Shown: piece by piece, positions 8,199 through 46,564 of the stretch
Numbering within the stretch: position 1 is the stretch's first letter
Layout of the letters: each line of letters opens with the position of its first letter
Source of the DNA: Candidatus Fermentimicrarchaeum limneticum
GTDB lineage: Archaea > Micrarchaeota > Micrarchaeia > Burarchaeales > Fermentimicrarchaeaceae
DNA: 64,000 bases
Direction: 5' to 3'
Assembly (NCBI GenBank): GCA_013426015.1
Contig: CP058998.1
Span: 124,001-188,000 of the forward strand
Program-made: the position numbers and the translations under genes
Notes under the pieces: generated by a model
What the model saw: only the letters and a program-made list of their open reading frames with translations
Databases searched by the model: none
Told to the model about the DNA's origin: nothing

Positions 8199-8618
8199 TT
8201 GTTGGATTGGAGGACAGCAGCCATTATAACAATGCTTGCGCTTGGAGTCTACAACATCCTCGTCCAGATGTTCGTCAAGGAAGTTGATTGGCGGGTCATG
8301 ATTCCCATAGTCTTTGTGGTCTCACTTGCGCTTCTTATCTATTTTTTCTTTTCTTATCCCTTGTTTATCGACACGGTGACGCCAGGCTCAGTGCTTTTGG
8401 CCTTCTCGCTTGCAATTATCTTTGTCATTTCAACAGTATTCACATACCTATCCTACAAGGAAGGCGGCCCTATCAGTGCTGTTGTGCCAATATTCAGCCT
8501 GAGCATGTTTGTTTCGGTTTTGATATCAGTAGCCTTCCTCAAAGAGGAGATGAACCTCATCACCATAGCCGGAATGCTCTTCAGCTTCATTGGTATGGTT
8601 CTGCTTGTTTATAAGTGA
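8199..8618 (+). CDS. EamA/DMT-like membrane protein, single repeat
   Basis: A 139-residue protein with about five hydrophobic spans. The end, AFLKEEMNLITIAGMLFSFIG with a short tail, is typical of one EamA repeat of drug/metabolite transporters. Full transporters carry two repeats, so this one probably dimerises or is a small regulator-like paralogue. The substrate is unknown. Start is TTG at 8199 or 8202; a GGTGA lies just upstream and overlaps the stop of the 28-residue peptide. Confidence 0.65.
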   Translation: MLDWRTAAIITMLALGVYNILVQMFVKEVDWRVMIPIVFVVSLALLIYFFFSYPLFIDTVTPGSVLLAFSLAIIFVISTVFTYLSYKEGGPISAVVPIFSLSMFVSVLISVAFLKEEMNLITIAGMLFSFIGMVLLVYK

Positions 8619-8734
8619 TTGAAAAGGTATATCGACAAGTGACGAATAAGTTTTTAACAAAGCGAGAGGAGAACCCTCGCACTTTAGAGATGGAGTAAAA
8701 CGAGCCATGCACATAAAATATATCTTACTCTTAT
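8619..8734. other. Gap before the structured repeat
   Basis: This AT-rich stretch is the first part of the 330-bp gap between the EamA-like gene and acs. Apart from the hairpin at 8662-8680 I see no gene or further signal in it; the rest of the gap holds the structured repeat and the acs leader, whose ribosome-binding site is just before 8949. Confidence 0.5.
8662..8680. terminator. GC-rich hairpin after the EamA-like gene
   Basis: GCGAG (8662-8666) pairs with CTCGC (8676-8680), and an inner GG/CC pair closes an AGAA tetraloop, with one unpaired A. It lies 44 bases after the EamA-like stop and has no long T run after it, so it may be a 3'-end structure rather than a classic terminator. Confidence 0.35.
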
Positions 8735-8751
8735 TTTCACTGGAAAGTTAC
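8735..8751 (+). promoter_or_regulatory. 17-nt upstream element, copy 1
   Basis: The string tttcactggaaagttac lies 12 bases before a TATA-like box. The same 17 bases recur at 17743-17759, 14 bases before a TATA box. The third locus (45572-45584, minus strand) has its last 13 bases. The core is a near dyad (CTTTC-actg-GAAAG in the 17.74 kb copy). It could be an activator or initiation-factor site for small RNA promoters. Confidence 0.6.
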
Positions 8752-8763
8752 CCCCCTTCACAT

Positions 8764-8773
8764 TATTTAAATA
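8764..8773 (+). promoter_or_regulatory. TATA-like box of structured repeat, copy 1
   Basis: The AT-rich TATTTAAATA lies inside the 85-nt block shared with the copy near 45.5 kb. If it is a TBP site in this orientation, transcription would start near 8790-8797, at the beginning of the foldable part of the repeat. Confidence 0.5.
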
Positions 8774-8787
8774 CTCTCCTTCCGAGT

Positions 8788-8909
8788 ACATACCACTACC
8801 GAGGGGCACTCGGGAAGTAACGCCTGCAATTCCATAATGGAGAGAGATGTTGCAGAAGCAATGTCTGTGAAGCAGGAAGCCCACACTTATTTATAAATGG
8901 GTATGTCAC
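8788..8909 (+). ncRNA. Putative structured RNA, copy 1
   Basis: This is one of two copies of a dispersed element; bases 8739-8823 are identical to the reverse complement of 45500-45584. Predicted pairings are CCGAG/CTCGG with a GGGCA loop (8799-8813); C23-C27 style stem CCTGC/GCAGG (8823-8827 with 8872-8876), which covaries with copy 2; TCCA/TGGA and TTGC/GCAA hairpins inside it; and possible end pairing ACATACC/GGTATGT (8788-8794 with 8900-8906). The rest of the conserved 3' part is gaagcccacacttatttata. Strand is inferred from the TATA-like box only. A minus-strand transcript from the TTTATAAATA at 8890-8899 is an alternative. It could also form part of the acs leader. Confidence 0.55.
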
Positions 8910-8948
8910 AAATTCTCTAGCATATCTATACCACACGGAGGGAGAATA

Positions 8949-10691
8949 ATGGAAGCGGATTTTGTAAAAGTGTCGAGTAAGAAGTTTAAAGGAAGACCTA
9001 ACATGGGAGCATACGAAAAGGTGTATCCCAGCTTCAAATGGGAGGACGTGCATGATGACGTGGAGTGGTTCGACGGAGGCAAGCTGAACCAGGCATACAA
9101 CACAATAGACAAGCACAGGGACACATGGAGGAAGAACAAGGTTGCCCTCTACTGGGAGGGTGAAGACGGAACCACCGAGAAATTCACTTTCTTGGAGATG
9201 TCCAACCTGTCCAACAAGTTCGCAAACGTGCTGAAGAAACACGGTCTCAAGCGAGGGGACAGAGTGTTCATATTCCTCTCCAGAATCCCTGAGAACTACA
9301 TAAGCTTCCTAGGAATACTGAAAATGGGGGGAATCGCAGGAACGATGTTCGCAGCATTCGGTCCTGAGGCAGTGAGGGACAGGCTGCTTGACAGCGAGGC
9401 AATCGTGCTTGTCACAGATGTGAAGCTGAAGCCTAGGGTCGACCAGATCAGGAAGGAGCTCCCAAACCTAAAGCACGTGTTCGTTGTTGGAGGGAAGGAC
9501 TTGAATGCAGCAGCTGGTGAGCTTAGCTACGAGGATGAGATGGCAAAGGCATCCCGCGATTTCGAAGCAGAAAAGATGAACCCTGATGATGTTGCATTCA
9601 TACAATATACCTCTGGTTCAACCGGCAAGCCGAAGGGGGTTATGCACACCCACGGGGGAATGCTGCAGCAGCACATAACTGCCAAATGGGTATTAGACCT
9701 GAAGGATGAGGATATCTACTGGTGCACCTCTGACCCCGGCTGGATAACCGGGATAGTATACACGATACTCGGCGCATGGTCAAACGGCGCTTCTCAGGTG
9801 GTATTTGACGGCAGGTTCGACCCTGAGAGGTGGTACTCGCTCATAGAGAAATACCAGGTCAATGTCTGGTACACAGCGCCAACTGCTCTGAGAATGCTGA
9901 TGTCCGTTGGGGACGAAATACCAAAGAAGCACAACCTGAAGAGCCTCAGACACATATGCAGCGTTGGCGAGCCGCTCAACCCAGAACCGATAAGGTGGGC
10001 GCACAAGGTGTTCGGTCTGTGGGTGCACGACACATGGTGGCAGACCGAAACCGGAAGCATGCTGATATGCAACTACCCGAAGATGGATATAAAAGTGGGA
10101 TACATGGGCAAGCCGTTCCCAGGCGTAACTGCTGCGGTAGTTGATGAGAATGGCAATGAGGTCAAGCCAGGCGAGGAGGGAGACCTGGCACTGAGGCCGG
10201 GCTGGCCCTCAATGTTCAAGGGAATTTGGAAGAACGAGGAGAAGTACAAATCCTACATTAAGAACGGCTGGTACATCACAGGTGACAAGGGAAAGATGGA
10301 CGCTGATGGCTACTTCATATACGTAGGAAGAGGGGACGATGTTATCAAGACAGCAGGTGAACGAGTCGGTCCCTTCGAGATTGAGAGCGCACTGGTCGAG
10401 CACCCAGCAGTTGCGGAGGCAGGCGTCATAGGCAAGCCAGACCCTGAGGGGATAAGGGGAGACATAATCAAGGCGTTCCTCGTCCTCAGGAAGGGCCACA
10501 CGCCTTCAAAGGAGTTGGAGGATGACATAAGAAAGTTCATAAAGACAAGGCTTGCAGGGCACATGTACCCCAAGGAGATAGAGTTCAGGGACACTCTTCC
10601 AAGGACGCAGAGCGGGAAGATAATGAGAAGAGTGCTGAAAGCACAGGAGCTGGGTCTTCCGACAGGAGACCTGTCAACAATTGAGAAATAA
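8949..10691 (+). CDS. acs: Acetyl-CoA synthetase, AMP-forming
   Basis: A 580-residue ANL-superfamily enzyme that activates acetate with ATP and CoA through an acetyl-adenylate. The P-loop-like YTSGSTGKPKGVMHTHGG motif, the DTWWQTETG adenine-binding segment, the hinge GRGDDVIKTAGERVGPFEIE and the catalytic lysine in PRTQSGKIMRR are all intact. It is somewhat shorter than the ~640-residue bacterial Acs, as in many archaeal forms. The GGAGGGAGA ribosome-binding site precedes the ATG. It converges on the ADP-forming acetyl-CoA synthetase genes, leaving 14 T-rich bases between the stops. Confidence 0.93.
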   Translation: MEADFVKVSSKKFKGRPNMGAYEKVYPSFKWEDVHDDVEWFDGGKLNQAYNTIDKHRDTWRKNKVALYWEGEDGTTEKFTFLEMSNLSNKFANVLKKHGLKRGDRVFIFLSRIPENYISFLGILKMGGIAGTMFAAFGPEAVRDRLLDSEAIVLVTDVKLKPRVDQIRKELPNLKHVFVVGGKDLNAAAGELSYEDEMAKASRDFEAEKMNPDDVAFIQYTSGSTGKPKGVMHTHGGMLQQHITAKWVLDLKDEDIYWCTSDPGWITGIVYTILGAWSNGASQVVFDGRFDPERWYSLIEKYQVNVWYTAPTALRMLMSVGDEIPKKHNLKSLRHICSVGEPLNPEPIRWAHKVFGLWVHDTWWQTETGSMLICNYPKMDIKVGYMGKPFPGVTAAVVDENGNEVKPGEEGDLALRPGWPSMFKGIWKNEEKYKSYIKNGWYITGDKGKMDADGYFIYVGRGDDVIKTAGERVGPFEIESALVEHPAVAEAGVIGKPDPEGIRGDIIKAFLVLRKGHTPSKELEDDIRKFIKTRLAGHMYPKEIEFRDTLPRTQSGKIMRRVLKAQELGLPTGDLSTIEK

Positions 10692-17742: not shown

Positions 17743-17759
17743 TTTCACTGGAAAGTTAC
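17743..17759 (+). promoter_or_regulatory. 17-nt upstream element, copy 3
   Basis: Identical to 8735-8751 (tttcactggaaagttac). Here the flanks extend it to a perfect dyad, AACTTTC-actg-GAAAGTT (17740-17757). It lies 14 bases before TTTATAAA, close to the 12-base spacing at 8.74 kb, which suggests a functional promoter element rather than a chance match. Confidence 0.6.
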
Positions 17760-17773
17760 TCCCATTACAGAGG

Positions 17774-17781
17774 TTTATAAA
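17774..17781 (+). promoter_or_regulatory. TATA box after upstream element
   Basis: TTTATAAA within aggtttataaagag is a good archaeal TATA box. It predicts a start near 17803, giving either a leader of about 90 nt for the next CDS or a separate small RNA. Confidence 0.5.
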
Positions 17782-17847
17782 GAGAAAAATCGACGGTTTA
17801 TCATGCTTATTTCAAAGACTCTTAAATGTAAGGTTTTCAGCCCAGAA

Positions 17848-17875
17848 CCGCCGATGACTGAGCAGATGAGGGCGG
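17848..17875 (+). other. Hairpin with duplicated GATGA loop
   Basis: CCGCC (17848-17852) pairs perfectly with GGCGG (17871-17875). The 18-nt loop contains GATGA twice with CTGA between them, resembling D'/C' boxes of C/D RNAs, but I cannot place outer C and D boxes. It is either part of a small RNA or a 5'-leader structure for the following gene. Confidence 0.35.
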
Positions 17876-17884
17876 AAGCACGTT

Positions 17885-17900
17885 AATTTATGTGCAAAGC
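17885..17900 (-). repeat. Right arm of perfect 16-nt inverted repeat
   Basis: aatttatgtgcaaagc, the reverse complement of 17705-17720. It contains the ATG at 17890. Confidence 0.9.
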
Positions 17901-19353
17901 AACTCCCGCTTCAAGAAGGATTTTAAACTCCAAAATGCAGAATTTAAGCATGCCAGTAACCAAAAGGGCTGAGACTGAATCTGGATTTATGGCGCCGGTA
18001 GTGGAGCCGTTTTCAAAGGTTGCCAAAAGGGTTGACGAGAAGCAGACCTTCGCTGACATCGCTTTATCGCTTGTAAGAATAACCGACCTGAATAACGACT
18101 TGGGCAAGCTGAAAGAGGTTAGGGACAAAGAGCTTCAGAATATTGCCAAACAACTGCGCGAAGCTGCAAAAAAGGTCGGCACTCCTGAGTTCCAGAGAGA
18201 TATCGACATTTTCACTGAACATCTGAAAGAGAACAACCCTCTCCTCAAAAGCTTTGTGAGTGGAAACTTGGAATCAATACAGAACTTCCTCAGAAAGAAC
18301 GGCTATTTCTTCGAGGCTTTCCCTCTGGAATCCAATAAAGACGGATATGTGAAATTCGCCTATGCACACGGAGAGGAGAATGATAAGCTTAGGGAAGTGA
18401 CCAATGAGGCAGGCGTTAGGGTAACGAAGAGAGTCTACGATATATACGGAACGACTTTCCCATCCTCGTATCTCGCAATAATACCACACCTGATAAGGAA
18501 GGATGAGCATGAAGTAGTCTCACTCATCCACCAGCAGGAGCTGGATGTTCTCAAGGATAAGCTCACCCATGTGAAGAAAGTAAGCGAGGGCGGAAAACCG
18601 GATTACGAAAAGCTGTTCTCCGGCCACTTCTTCACAGATGGGCGCGACGTGCTTCCCAAAGAAGTCTACAAAAAACTTGATTCCAAACTCGTTGAGGAGG
18701 GCTTGAAGAACCTCTTTGCCAGCAATGAGAATTACAGTGAGCAGAAGGTTATAGACTTTGCGAATAAAATAAGGGAGACAACCGGGCATGACGACAAGTT
18801 CCTTGAAGTGAAACTCCTGACGCTGAGAATGCTCTTCAAAGCATCCCAAACATACGATTTCAACTCGCAGGAATCCGTAGACTCATTCAAAAATGCATTT
18901 ACGGAAATGCACAAGGTTCATGAGGGAAGACACTCCAAGAATAAGGCATGGGGCATAGAGATAAGTGCAGCAGATGACGAGAGAACGGCATATCTTGATA
19001 TGATAAACAGCAACCAGCATAAACTGACCGGGATACCTTTCCTCACGCTTTCAATGAATCTAACTGGATACGCAAGCGCAATGGAGGAAAAACCCCAGAG
19101 ACAGACCTACGCTCATCCATCTATTGCAGAGTCAAAGAATTTCATAGAATGCCATCAGAAAGCAGGCTGGGATATAACTGTGGACATGGCGAGACAGGCA
19201 GCGGAGATGTGCGGGATAAAGGGGTATCCTGAAAAATATCTGACCGACGGAGACAAGCAGTCAATCCTTTCTCTTGGAAGGCTTGATGAGGGTGAGATAA
19301 AGGGCATTGCCCTCTCGCTTGAATCATCCCTCCTATACTCGCATAAGCTCTAA
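17890..19353 (+). CDS. Unknown protein with HExxH motif (putative metallopeptidase)
   Basis: A 487-residue, mostly helical, soluble protein that I cannot assign to a family. It carries one HExxH motif, VHEGRHSKNK (H344, E345, H348), followed 16 residues later by DDERTAYLDM, whose E364 could be a third zinc ligand as in gluzincins. There is no signal peptide or membrane span. The start is uncertain: the ATG at 17890 lies inside an inverted-repeat arm, and ATGs at 17935 and 17950 are alternatives. Its last four bases overlap the stop of the convergent DUF2070 gene. Confidence 0.6.
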   Translation: MCKATPASRRILNSKMQNLSMPVTKRAETESGFMAPVVEPFSKVAKRVDEKQTFADIALSLVRITDLNNDLGKLKEVRDKELQNIAKQLREAAKKVGTPEFQRDIDIFTEHLKENNPLLKSFVSGNLESIQNFLRKNGYFFEAFPLESNKDGYVKFAYAHGEENDKLREVTNEAGVRVTKRVYDIYGTTFPSSYLAIIPHLIRKDEHEVVSLIHQQELDVLKDKLTHVKKVSEGGKPDYEKLFSGHFFTDGRDVLPKEVYKKLDSKLVEEGLKNLFASNENYSEQKVIDFANKIRETTGHDDKFLEVKLLTLRMLFKASQTYDFNSQESVDSFKNAFTEMHKVHEGRHSKNKAWGIEISAADDERTAYLDMINSNQHKLTGIPFLTLSMNLTGYASAMEEKPQRQTYAHPSIAESKNFIECHQKAGWDITVDMARQAAEMCGIKGYPEKYLTDGDKQSILSLGRLDEGEIKGIALSLESSLLYSHKL

Positions 19354-31345: not shown

Positions 31346-31367
31346 GCCACTCAATAAATTGGGTGGC
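31346..31367. repeat. Hairpin at right end of tnpB element
   Basis: GCCACTCAAT pairs with ATTGGGTGGC through ten base pairs (one G-T) around an AA loop. It overlaps the tnpB stop codon (31351-31353). In IS200/IS605 elements a right-end hairpin is recognised by TnpA and its transcript forms part of the TnpB guide RNA scaffold. A terminator role is also possible. Confidence 0.6.
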
Positions 31368-32604
31368 TTTCCATAGGTTGATTTGTATGTTGCACAGCAA
31401 CGTTGGACAAACCAACTGCATCTGGACGCAGAAGCCCGTTTACAGGGACTCGCCTGTTGGAAATCTGGGCAAAATCAGGAATAGTGAGTTCGTGATTCTC
31501 CCGCTCCAACAGAGATTTTATAGCAATAGCAAGGGATGCCTTTCTATCGCTATTCACAACCTTACCGCATACCTTACATTTATACAAGGCATAGTTTCCA
31601 GAGTAGTGCCCGTTATTCACTGCACCGCAGGCAGAACACCACTTGGAGGTATGGTAAGCATTAACTTCTCTGAGAGGGATACCAAACATTTCAGCATTAG
31701 AGCAAAGGAATTCCTTGAACTTGCCGTACGGAATTCTATTGATTTTTCTATTGGCTTCTTTTCTAAATCTTCCTCTTCTGCCTCTGGTATTCTTGAGTTT
31801 CTCAATGGATATGTATGCATCATATCTCTTGGCAAGATTGACAATCTCCTTGGCAACCTGACCGCTTCTTGTCTTGACAAAATTGAATTGTTTATGCTTA
31901 AGGTTTCTAAGGCTCTTCTTTGCCCTTCCAGAACCATTATCAGCAAGGCTTCGGAGTTTGGCTTTTCTTTCAAGATATTTTCTCTGCCGTTCAGCAACAT
32001 CCCTTCCAAAGTAGAGTTGTTTAACAATTTTGGAAGTCTTGATGTCAAAGATAGAAACAGCGGCAAGAGTGGAACTGCCAACATCAACACCAATAACATA
32101 TCGCTTGGAATCCACAGTGGGTTCTTCAAATTCCTTTTCAAGAACAACGGAGATTCTGCCGTCTTTCAGAAGGGAGACATTATCAAACAACCAGCCGTCA
32201 TCAAGGAAGGATTTGAACCGTTGGAATTGCCTGTCCAAAGCAACAGGGATGAGCAGTTTCTTCTTGGGGGAGTAAGTAATGCTGAAGACGGGATTATTCC
32301 TCTTGGAAGCAGTGAACTTGAACCATCTCTTGTTCAATCTAATGGAGCAGTTCTTAAACCCATTCCTGAGTTTTTTTCTGCTCTTCCAAACATCTTTTCT
32401 GGCTTCCTGAACAATATCACTTGGGAGAAAAGAGGTCTTGCGTATGCCTGAATATGTTTTGTGGTGCAACTCAGTAGAGGATTTTGCAGGCAGATGTCCA
32501 GCAGTTGCATTCAACACCCGCAGGTATTCCGAAATAACAGTATCCAGAGTTTTGGATTTCTTCCTTGTCAACTCACGGCAGTTCAATACGATGCACTTTC
32601 TCAC
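31351..32604 (-). CDS. tnpB: TnpB RNA-guided nuclease of an IS200/IS605-type element
   Basis: A 417-residue TnpB with an intact split RuvC active site: D174 in IGVDVGSS, E268 in ISIEKLKN and D353 in NSDRKAS. The zinc finger cysteines are C323, C326, C343 and C346. The start is GTG (32604). No tnpA is present, so the copy cannot move without a transposase supplied in trans. Hairpins lie at both ends (31346-31367 and 32659-32678). TnpB cuts DNA specified by a guide RNA transcribed from the element's right end, which helps retain the element. Confidence 0.92.
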   Translation of the reverse strand: MRKCIVLNCRELTRKKSKTLDTVISEYLRVLNATAGHLPAKSSTELHHKTYSGIRKTSFLPSDIVQEARKDVWKSRKKLRNGFKNCSIRLNKRWFKFTASKRNNPVFSITYSPKKKLLIPVALDRQFQRFKSFLDDGWLFDNVSLLKDGRISVVLEKEFEEPTVDSKRYVIGVDVGSSTLAAVSIFDIKTSKIVKQLYFGRDVAERQRKYLERKAKLRSLADNGSGRAKKSLRNLKHKQFNFVKTRSGQVAKEIVNLAKRYDAYISIEKLKNTRGRRGRFRKEANRKINRIPYGKFKEFLCSNAEMFGIPLREVNAYHTSKWCSACGAVNNGHYSGNYALYKCKVCGKVVNSDRKASLAIAIKSLLERENHELTIPDFAQISNRRVPVNGLLRPDAVGLSNVAVQHTNQPMESHPIY

Positions 32605-44987: not shown

Positions 44988-45432
44988 CAAGCTCAAATCT
45001 CTGATGAAGCAGAGGGAGGAGAAGAATATTGCTCTGCTAGTTGACGGTCCGAATGTCATAAGGAAGGATGTGAATGTAGACCTGGAGGGAGTGAAGAGGA
45101 AGGTTGAGAAGTACGGCAGGATAAAGATATGCAAAGTATTCCTGGACCAGTACGCTTCTGACAAGCTCATAGAAGCAGTGACGAATCAGGGATACGAACC
45201 TGTCATAACAACCGGCGATGTTGACGTCACAATGGCCGTCTATGCTGTCGAGCAGGTTTTCAATCCCAACATCCAGATAATCGCCCTGATGACTAGGGAC
45301 ATTGACTTCAGGCCGGTCATAGTGAAAGCAAAGGAAAAGGGGAAGGAGACGATTGTCATAGGGGCGGACCCAGGCTTCAGCGTCGCATTGAAAAAGACTG
45401 CGGACATTGTAATATTTGCAGACACACGGTGA
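44974..45432 (+). CDS. NYN-domain (LabA/PIN-like) nuclease
   Basis: A 152-residue NYN domain. ALLVDGPNVIRKDV carries the first acidic residue, TTGDVDVTMAVYAVEQ the second, and LMTRDIDFRPVIVKAKEKG the third, giving a PIN-like metal site. The family processes or degrades RNA. The ATG at 44974 lies inside the end of the TatD gene. Its stop codon coincides with the edge of the second structured repeat. Confidence 0.85.
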   Translation: MAVIDKLKSLMKQREEKNIALLVDGPNVIRKDVNVDLEGVKRKVEKYGRIKICKVFLDQYASDKLIEAVTNQGYEPVITTGDVDVTMAVYAVEQVFNPNIQIIALMTRDIDFRPVIVKAKEKGKETIVIGADPGFSVALKKTADIVIFADTR

Positions 45433-45535
45433 CATACCCACCTATAAATAAGTGTGGGCTTCTTCTTTCACAGACGCAACTATTGTTGCATTTCCAGAAG
45501 CGTTACTTCCCGAGTGCCCCTCGGTAGTGGTATGT
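45429..45535 (-). ncRNA. Putative structured RNA, copy 2
   Basis: Inverted second copy of the element at 8.8 kb. The block 45500-45584 is identical (85 nt) to 8739-8823. The variable part keeps the stem AGAAG/CTTCT (45496-45500 with 45462-45466), where copy 1 has CCTGC/GCAGG: three pairs changed on both sides. An inner hairpin GCAAC-TATT-GTTGC (45476-45489) replaces the two small hairpins of copy 1. Strand is inferred from the TATA-like box on the minus strand; the plus-strand TATAAATA at 45443-45450 would support the opposite direction. The element reaches the NYN stop codon. Confidence 0.55.
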
Positions 45536-45549
45536 ACTCGGAAGGAGAG

Positions 45550-45559
45550 TATTTAAATA
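45550..45559 (-). promoter_or_regulatory. TATA-like box of structured repeat, copy 2
   Basis: TATTTAAATA, identical in position within the repeat to 8764-8773. Confidence 0.5.
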
Positions 45560-45571
45560 ATGTGAAGGGGG

Positions 45572-45584
45572 GTAACTTTCCAGT
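45572..45584 (-). promoter_or_regulatory. Upstream element, copy 2 (13 of 17 nt)
   Basis: Minus-strand actggaaagttac matches the last 13 bases of the 17-nt element at 8735-8751 and 17743-17759. The four bases before it differ, so 13 bases may be the real core. Confidence 0.55.
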
Positions 45585-45639
45585 AATAGCTTGATATATT
45601 TTTCTGTTTGCATATCTGCTTTTTTACTCGCCATGCTAA

Positions 45640-46478: not shown

Positions 46479-46564
46479 GGGCTCGTAGCTCAGTAGCAGA
46501 GCGTTCGCTTGGCGAATTATCTCCAAAATGCGAAAGGCCGCGGGTGCGACTCCCGCCGAGTCCA
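46479..46564 (+). tRNA. tRNA-Ala (anticodon GGC) with 14-nt intron
   Basis: All arms fold. Acceptor GGGCTCG pairs with CGAGTCC, including the G3-U70 wobble that defines alanine tRNAs, with A73 as discriminator. D stem is GCTC/GAGC, anticodon stem TTCGC/GCGAA, T stem GCGGG/CCCGC. The anticodon GGC is at 46511-46513. The loop is interrupted at position 37/38 by an intron (46515-46528). CCA is not encoded. Confidence 0.95.
46515..46528 (+). other. tRNA-Ala intron (14 nt, canonical position 37/38)
   Basis: The intron is aattatctccaaaa. TTGG (46509-46512) pairs with CCAA (46523-46526), with 3-nt bulges CGA and AAT on either side. This is the bulge-helix-bulge motif cut by the archaeal splicing endonuclease, and cutting after the second base of each bulge gives exactly these ends. 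Mature loop: TTGGCGT. Confidence 0.9.

Follow-up and report, generated by a model that had tools for sequence, protein, structure and literature searches.

What is the structured sequence that occurs twice, in inverted orientation, in a 64,000-nt stretch of the genome of Candidatus Fermentimicrarchaeum limneticum (contig CP058998.1, positions 124,001–188,000; the whole stretch is called the window below)? The original prediction had taken positions 8739–8909 for a candidate new small RNA family with a selected fold. A repeat search confirmed that bases 8739–8823 match the reverse complement of 45500–45584 at 85 of 85 positions (100% identity); this repeat is far beyond chance. The conserved sequence resumes past the divergence that follows, in a second inverted pair (8863–8909 and 45429–45475, 89% identity) containing gaagcccacacttatttata. 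The 5-bp stem was also found in both copies: in copy 1, CCTGC (8823–8827) pairs with GCAGG (8872–8876), and in copy 2, CTTCT (45500–45496) pairs with AGAAG (45466–45462).

The genome to which the window belongs (1.2 Mb, two contigs) was searched with positions 8730–8925 using BLAST. Matches occurred throughout it (best non-self E 1e-60): about ten were long copies, and a further 20–30 or so were short, most of them to the first 30 nt. The covariance model search that had been proposed for the repeat gave 22 matches in this genome at E ≤ 0.01. Several of the long copies run upstream into an open frame ending in ..CPECGLSTDRDLNAARNILTRATPGQGGSNACNSLLERDAAEAASMKQEAH.., which is the zinc-ribbon and RuvC-III end of TnpB; the rough, structure-free alignment of mixed strands used here served solely for spotting tnpB. 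In the tnpB-bearing copies of this genome and its congeners, the conserved block straddles the tnpB 3' end and the element's right end, a linkage seen in about 30 copies in the genus. The own genome encodes 14 TnpB C-terminal domains above the Pfam cut-off. One of its TnpB proteins (L031) matches the structurally solved TnpB of ISDra2 at E 4.5e-45, contains the OrfB_IS605 and Cas12f1-like_TNB domains, and has close relatives in records named Candidatus Micrarchaeota. A divergent TnpB-like gene with its own right-end-like hairpin and without the TGGAAAG promoter motif lies in the window itself (31351–32604, minus strand; 56 bits to PF07282); a possible remnant of its subfamily is located at L023.

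The element almost certainly derives from an IS200/IS605-type transposon of an uncultured Micrarchaeota archaeon and is non-autonomous, and this identity taken together with a structured omegaRNA is very probably the correct explanation. An omegaRNA is composed of the tnpB 3' end, the right end of the element and a guide derived from the flank (PMC8612924), and it carries a 3' hairpin near the scaffold end (PMC10278001). The RNA studied here lies across the tnpB 3' end and the transposon right end, has a conserved, covarying secondary structure, and contains a hairpin within ~10 nt of the scaffold 3' end. Read by eye, this hairpin, CCCAC...GTGGG, is followed by AGCATGTCAC in most copies and is weaker in copy 1. 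The folded RNA is thus the omegaRNA (reRNA) of a TnpB nuclease. The idea of a new small RNA family was right insofar as Rfam lacks the sequence, but the RNA belongs to a known class. The repeat sequence in the window gave no match to any Rfam model at the gathering threshold, and positions 8600–8960 gave none at E ≤ 1, which ruled out the known Rfam RNA classes considered. Elsewhere in the window (46479–46564, plus strand), Rfam identified an 86-nt tRNA (56 bits) that was missed by ARAGORN and in which there may be an intron or an unusual arm.

The window copies are TnpB-less, PATE-like insertions that retain the guide-RNA scaffold directly behind a promoter. Their features are as follows.

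8659–8909, plus strand: copy 1, a TnpB-less IS200/IS605-type (PATE-like) element of 251 bp (empty sites in congeners).
8659–8680, plus strand: degenerate left end of copy 1, a short hairpin GCGAG..CTCGC (position and spacing as in the left-end hairpins of sister copies).
8736–8754, plus strand: promoter motif TTCACTGGAAAGTTACCCC of copy 1 (31 sites in the genome with ≤3 mismatches).
8766–8773, plus strand: TATA box TTTAAATA of copy 1, 29 nt before the first omegaRNA base.
8795–8909, plus strand: omegaRNA (reRNA) scaffold of copy 1 (alignment, fold and covariance model of 35 copies; tnpB homology).
8823–8876, plus strand: stem B, CCTGC/GCAGG, the stem of the original prediction (28 copies of this type, 7 of the CTTCT type).
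45429–45637, minus strand: copy 2, TnpB-less, with a short 3' module and a mostly lost left end (empty sites in congeners; insertion boundary uncertain by a few bases).
45550–45557, minus strand: TATA box TTTAAATA of copy 2 (survey of TATA spacing).
45429–45528, minus strand: omegaRNA scaffold of copy 2, CTTCT/AGAAG type (alignment, fold and covariance model).
17744–17899, plus strand: third TnpB-less remnant, right boundary approximate (matches to the tnpB start and tail in L033/L034/L044).

The unit 8739–8909 proved to be part of a real element, but a larger one, which starts at ~8659 immediately 3' of the target TTAAC (8654–8658) and ends with ATGTCAC. Copy 1 separates the promoter region of an acyl-CoA synthetase-like gene (8949–10691) from its start codon, and the orthologous upstream region is an empty site in three congeners. 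The gene adjoining copy 2 is likewise present without the insert in congeneric genomes. The alignment of the empty sites placed the copy 1 insertion 3' of TTTTTAA(C) and showed copy 2 as an insertion of ~209 bp, both without target duplication. Insertion 3' of a short fixed target with no duplication is the behaviour of IS200/IS605-type, PATE-like elements. The statement that the repeat fits no transposon or coding gene therefore fails on two grounds: in the sister copies the sequence forms the tnpB 3' end and an IS200/IS605-type right end, and comparison with the congeners shows a clean insertion at both window copies. A mobile-element origin had been regarded beforehand as fatal to the RNA; the origin is indeed such, and the RNA stands nonetheless, because omegaRNAs belong to these elements.

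The full copies target TTAAC or close variants, behind which a left-end hairpin of the TCCCACACGCTTTAGCGGTGGGA type follows at near-constant spacing. Subterminal palindromes are clear in the sister copies. In copy 1, the left end is degenerate, its short hairpin matching the intact sister hairpins in position and in distance from TTAAC, and in copy 2 the left end is mostly lost; judging from these ends, the two copies may no longer move. The junction of TTCAC and TGGAAAGTTACCCC was rejected as the transposon left end, because the full copies have their hairpin left end ~80 nt further upstream after TTAAC and because the motif, a promoter element, also precedes ordinary ORFs. In the third remnant, which derives from another TnpB subfamily, the promoter and the first codons of tnpB are joined to the 3' tail and the right end; a 487-aa ORF (17890–19353) has its ATG inside the right-end hairpin of this remnant. 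At L006 (own genome, G000) and L082 (G003), an omegaRNA without a left end has entered a native TATA box TTTAAATA or the sequence immediately behind it; L224 and L229 of G001 show the empty site, and by this comparison the TATA box was retained after the insertion.

No match to the Y1 transposase TnpA (PF01797) was found in the own genome or in the four congeners (G001–G004), these genomes being 89–97% complete, so that a missed or extrachromosomal gene is possible. Mobility therefore relies on a transposase from elsewhere, or has ceased. Mobilisation by a serine resolvase (IS607-type) was also considered and rejected, as there was one partial resolvase match in the own genome and none in the four congeners. 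The genus genomes (G000–G004) thus hold many tnpB copies, yet they are without Y1 TnpA and almost without serine resolvase.

For the analysis of the fold, an alignment was made of 35 omegaRNA copies, taken from the own genome and from four congeners. RNAalifold, supplied with no structure, returned stems A, B, and D with two-sided changes in 10 of 21 pairs, and after the addition of stem C, 97.7% of the stem cells in the 35 copies were paired. The two-sided cells numbered 87, compared with 24.4 ± 3.4 in shuffles and ≤19 in slid versions; it should be noted that these statistics lean in favour of the structure, which was partly derived from the same, related sequences. Stem A occurs in CG, GC, AU, and UA forms: one position alone shows four pair types, and the combinations are many. 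Meanwhile, stem B has just two states (28 copies against 7) and may therefore reflect a single change. The three two-sided changes between the window copies are present (alignment columns 30/91, 32/89, and 33/88), but they are not independent. Three copies of the own genome (L001, L002, and L003) have a common 5' block and three different 3' modules, which indicates that the modules recombine. The divergence after the 85-nt block is such a module swap, and the three double changes are therefore one event. The fold is nevertheless real: its support comes from the other copies, not from the window pair, and the selected RNA fold is borne out more strongly than two copies had allowed.

The motif TTCACTGGAAAGTTACYCC followed by a TATA box is found upstream of tnpB and of TnpB-less copies alike, and the reversed pattern had no site in the genome, compared with the 31 of the promoter motif. 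As TTCACTGGAAAGTTACYCC also precedes ordinary ORFs, we conclude that it is a promoter element and not a transposon end. The survey of TnpB-less copies comprised 23 entries. Three were set aside as not genuine copies of the genus: L031 held a spurious match, L079 came from another genome, and L091 was a piece of tnpB at the edge of a contig. A TATA box was present in 16 of the remaining 20. Its distance to the first omegaRNA base was 27–30 nt in 14 of the 16 promoter-bearing copies and 37 nt in the other two, a regularity seen in about five junction types, some of which share descent, so that the number of independent origins is small. About the same spacing was seen in L079, from a distant genome of the same class (G035), and, read by eye, in L081 from another genus of the family. 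Archaeal TATA boxes stand ~26–27 nt before the transcription start, and the predicted start therefore lies close to the first omegaRNA base.

The motif TTCACTGGAAAGYTACCCC is located at a fixed distance before a TATA box and is common to tnpB elements and ordinary genes (window position 17744; L011, L018, L019, L027, L030, L074, L105, L114, L115, and L118). Among the ordinary genes are a small family of paralogues (MKMDISKLKDEEIDQLISFLDRR...) and a PIN-domain-like gene. This motif is possibly a transcription-factor binding site or an upstream promoter element. Three identical sites of it (L019–L021; G000:C1 342817, 368806, and 394795) are spaced by exactly 25,989 bp. They mark a segment of 26 kb that is present three times in tandem; it could be an artefact of the assembly, or else an integrated or circular element.

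The TnpB-less copies differ from the tnpB-bearing ones in further respects. The 3' module GGAACTACACGCCATGAAACAGGGGCTG...GTGTGAGGATGTCAC was present in 8 of the 23 TnpB-less entries and in none of 30 tnpB copies (Fisher P 5.5e-4, the copies not being independent). At four TnpB-less loci, the RNA occupies the same place in two species in spite of flanks that are only 76–85% identical. Among the tnpB copies retrieved, no such sharing between species was found, and in a direct test of four tnpB loci, all the orthologous sites that could be located in relatives were empty. The pair L105/L114 was left out of the shared loci, as its omegaRNA types differ and its flanks resemble a repeated segment. 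No single tree accommodates the four sharing patterns, and some of the orthologous sites of these loci are empty or hold a remnant, so that loss or homing must play a part. The predicted guide is the local flank in every copy. The TATA spacing, the 3' module confined to TnpB-less copies and the loci common to species look unusual, and the promoter-fused TnpB-less layout with its own 3' module and interspecies loci may be the new part.

The known systems were compared with this layout. As in the omegaRNA (reRNA) of ISDra2 and other TnpB systems (PMC8612924, PMC10278001), the RNA spans the tnpB 3' end and the right end, has a subterminal 3' hairpin, and terminates at the right end so that the guide derives from the flank; unlike there, the window copies lack tnpB, have a promoter directly before the RNA and match no Rfam model. 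The palindrome-associated transposable elements (PATEs) of Haloquadratum (PMC3119063) and Halanaerobium (PMC7290912) are likewise Tnp-less IS605-type deletion derivatives with subterminal palindromes and no target duplication, and the Halanaerobium PATE-like element also retains the tnpB tail and right end (PMC7290912). In contrast to PATEs, a promoter at near-constant spacing precedes the omegaRNA here, one 3' module is limited to TnpB-less copies, and the left-end hairpin is missing from some copies. The sotRNAs of archaeal IS1341-type tnpB (RF02656, RF02657; PMC12558985) are similar as sense RNAs overlapping the tnpB 3' end, but the window copies do not match these curated haloarchaeal models. 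Our literature search found no report of TnpB-less omegaRNAs acting in trans, though earlier reports may exist.

On sequence grounds, we consider it reasonably probable that the TnpB-less omegaRNAs are promoter-driven guides used in trans by the TnpB of sister copies. What remained after the loss of tnpB were the left end, promoter, omegaRNA (reRNA) scaffold, and right end. The promoter would drive an omegaRNA from near 8795 to ~16 nt past 8909, the expected guide of copy 1 being those following ~16 nt (8910–8925). This RNA would be loaded into TnpB from an intact sister copy, and the complex would cut element-free versions of the same site beside a TTAAC-like TAM. Such cutting of empty sites could favour retention or homing of the element. 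Empty-site cleavage that keeps an element in the population has been proposed for TnpB in general (PMC8612924, PMC10278001). More tentatively, and with considerable doubt, the TnpB-less omegaRNAs of the genus might be stand-alone guide-RNA genes with a fixed-spacing promoter, some with their own 3' module, kept or re-homed across species and used in trans by TnpB.

The most serious alternative, which we regard as a real though lesser possibility, is pure decay: the TnpB-less copies would be deletion relics, with stems persisting through youth or reseeding from tnpB copies, and no RNA would be made or used. The free recombination of modules, the degenerate left ends, the missing TATA box in L101, L105, L097, and L114, and the broken stems of a few TnpB-less copies are consistent with it. 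Pairing in stem A, however, is retained without coding constraint: all five pairs are intact in 19 of the 23 TnpB-less entries, including a CGCTG/CAGCG form absent from tnpB copies. The near-constant TATA spacing and the four loci common to species with such diverged flanks also argue against decay.

It is rather unlikely that the TnpB-less omegaRNAs have been domesticated to serve the host, e.g., by steering TnpB elsewhere or affecting the downstream gene. The promoter layout, the 3' module restricted to TnpB-less copies and the loci common to different species would suit such a role, but the sharing patterns follow no single tree, several orthologous sites are empty and flank-derived guides drift along with the flank. 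Selection on pairing in single-stranded DNA as a transposase substrate, instead of in RNA, is highly improbable: the left- and right-end hairpins are known TnpA substrates in this family (PMC10278001), but stems A, B, and D lie inside the right end, apart from the subterminal hairpin and within the sister tnpB frame, and no TnpA gene was found in the genus genomes searched. An independent small RNA family unrelated to transposons, as first proposed from a sequence that has no Rfam match, can practically be dismissed, since the same RNA forms the tnpB 3' end in ~30 genus copies and is inserted at sites that are empty in congeners.

With promoter-driven guides used in trans by sister-copy TnpB as the preferred reading, an unexplained repeat becomes a testable case of guide RNAs that have parted from their nuclease; the archaeal lineage concerned has dozens of TnpB copies but no visible transposase. 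For the TnpB of Micrarchaeota, a covariance model is now at hand, together with many naturally occurring omegaRNA variants. Should the TnpB-less copies indeed be expressed and put to use in trans, a single TnpB could sustain a large number of tiny elements, and the arrangement of promoter and RNA would amount to a natural single-guide cassette.
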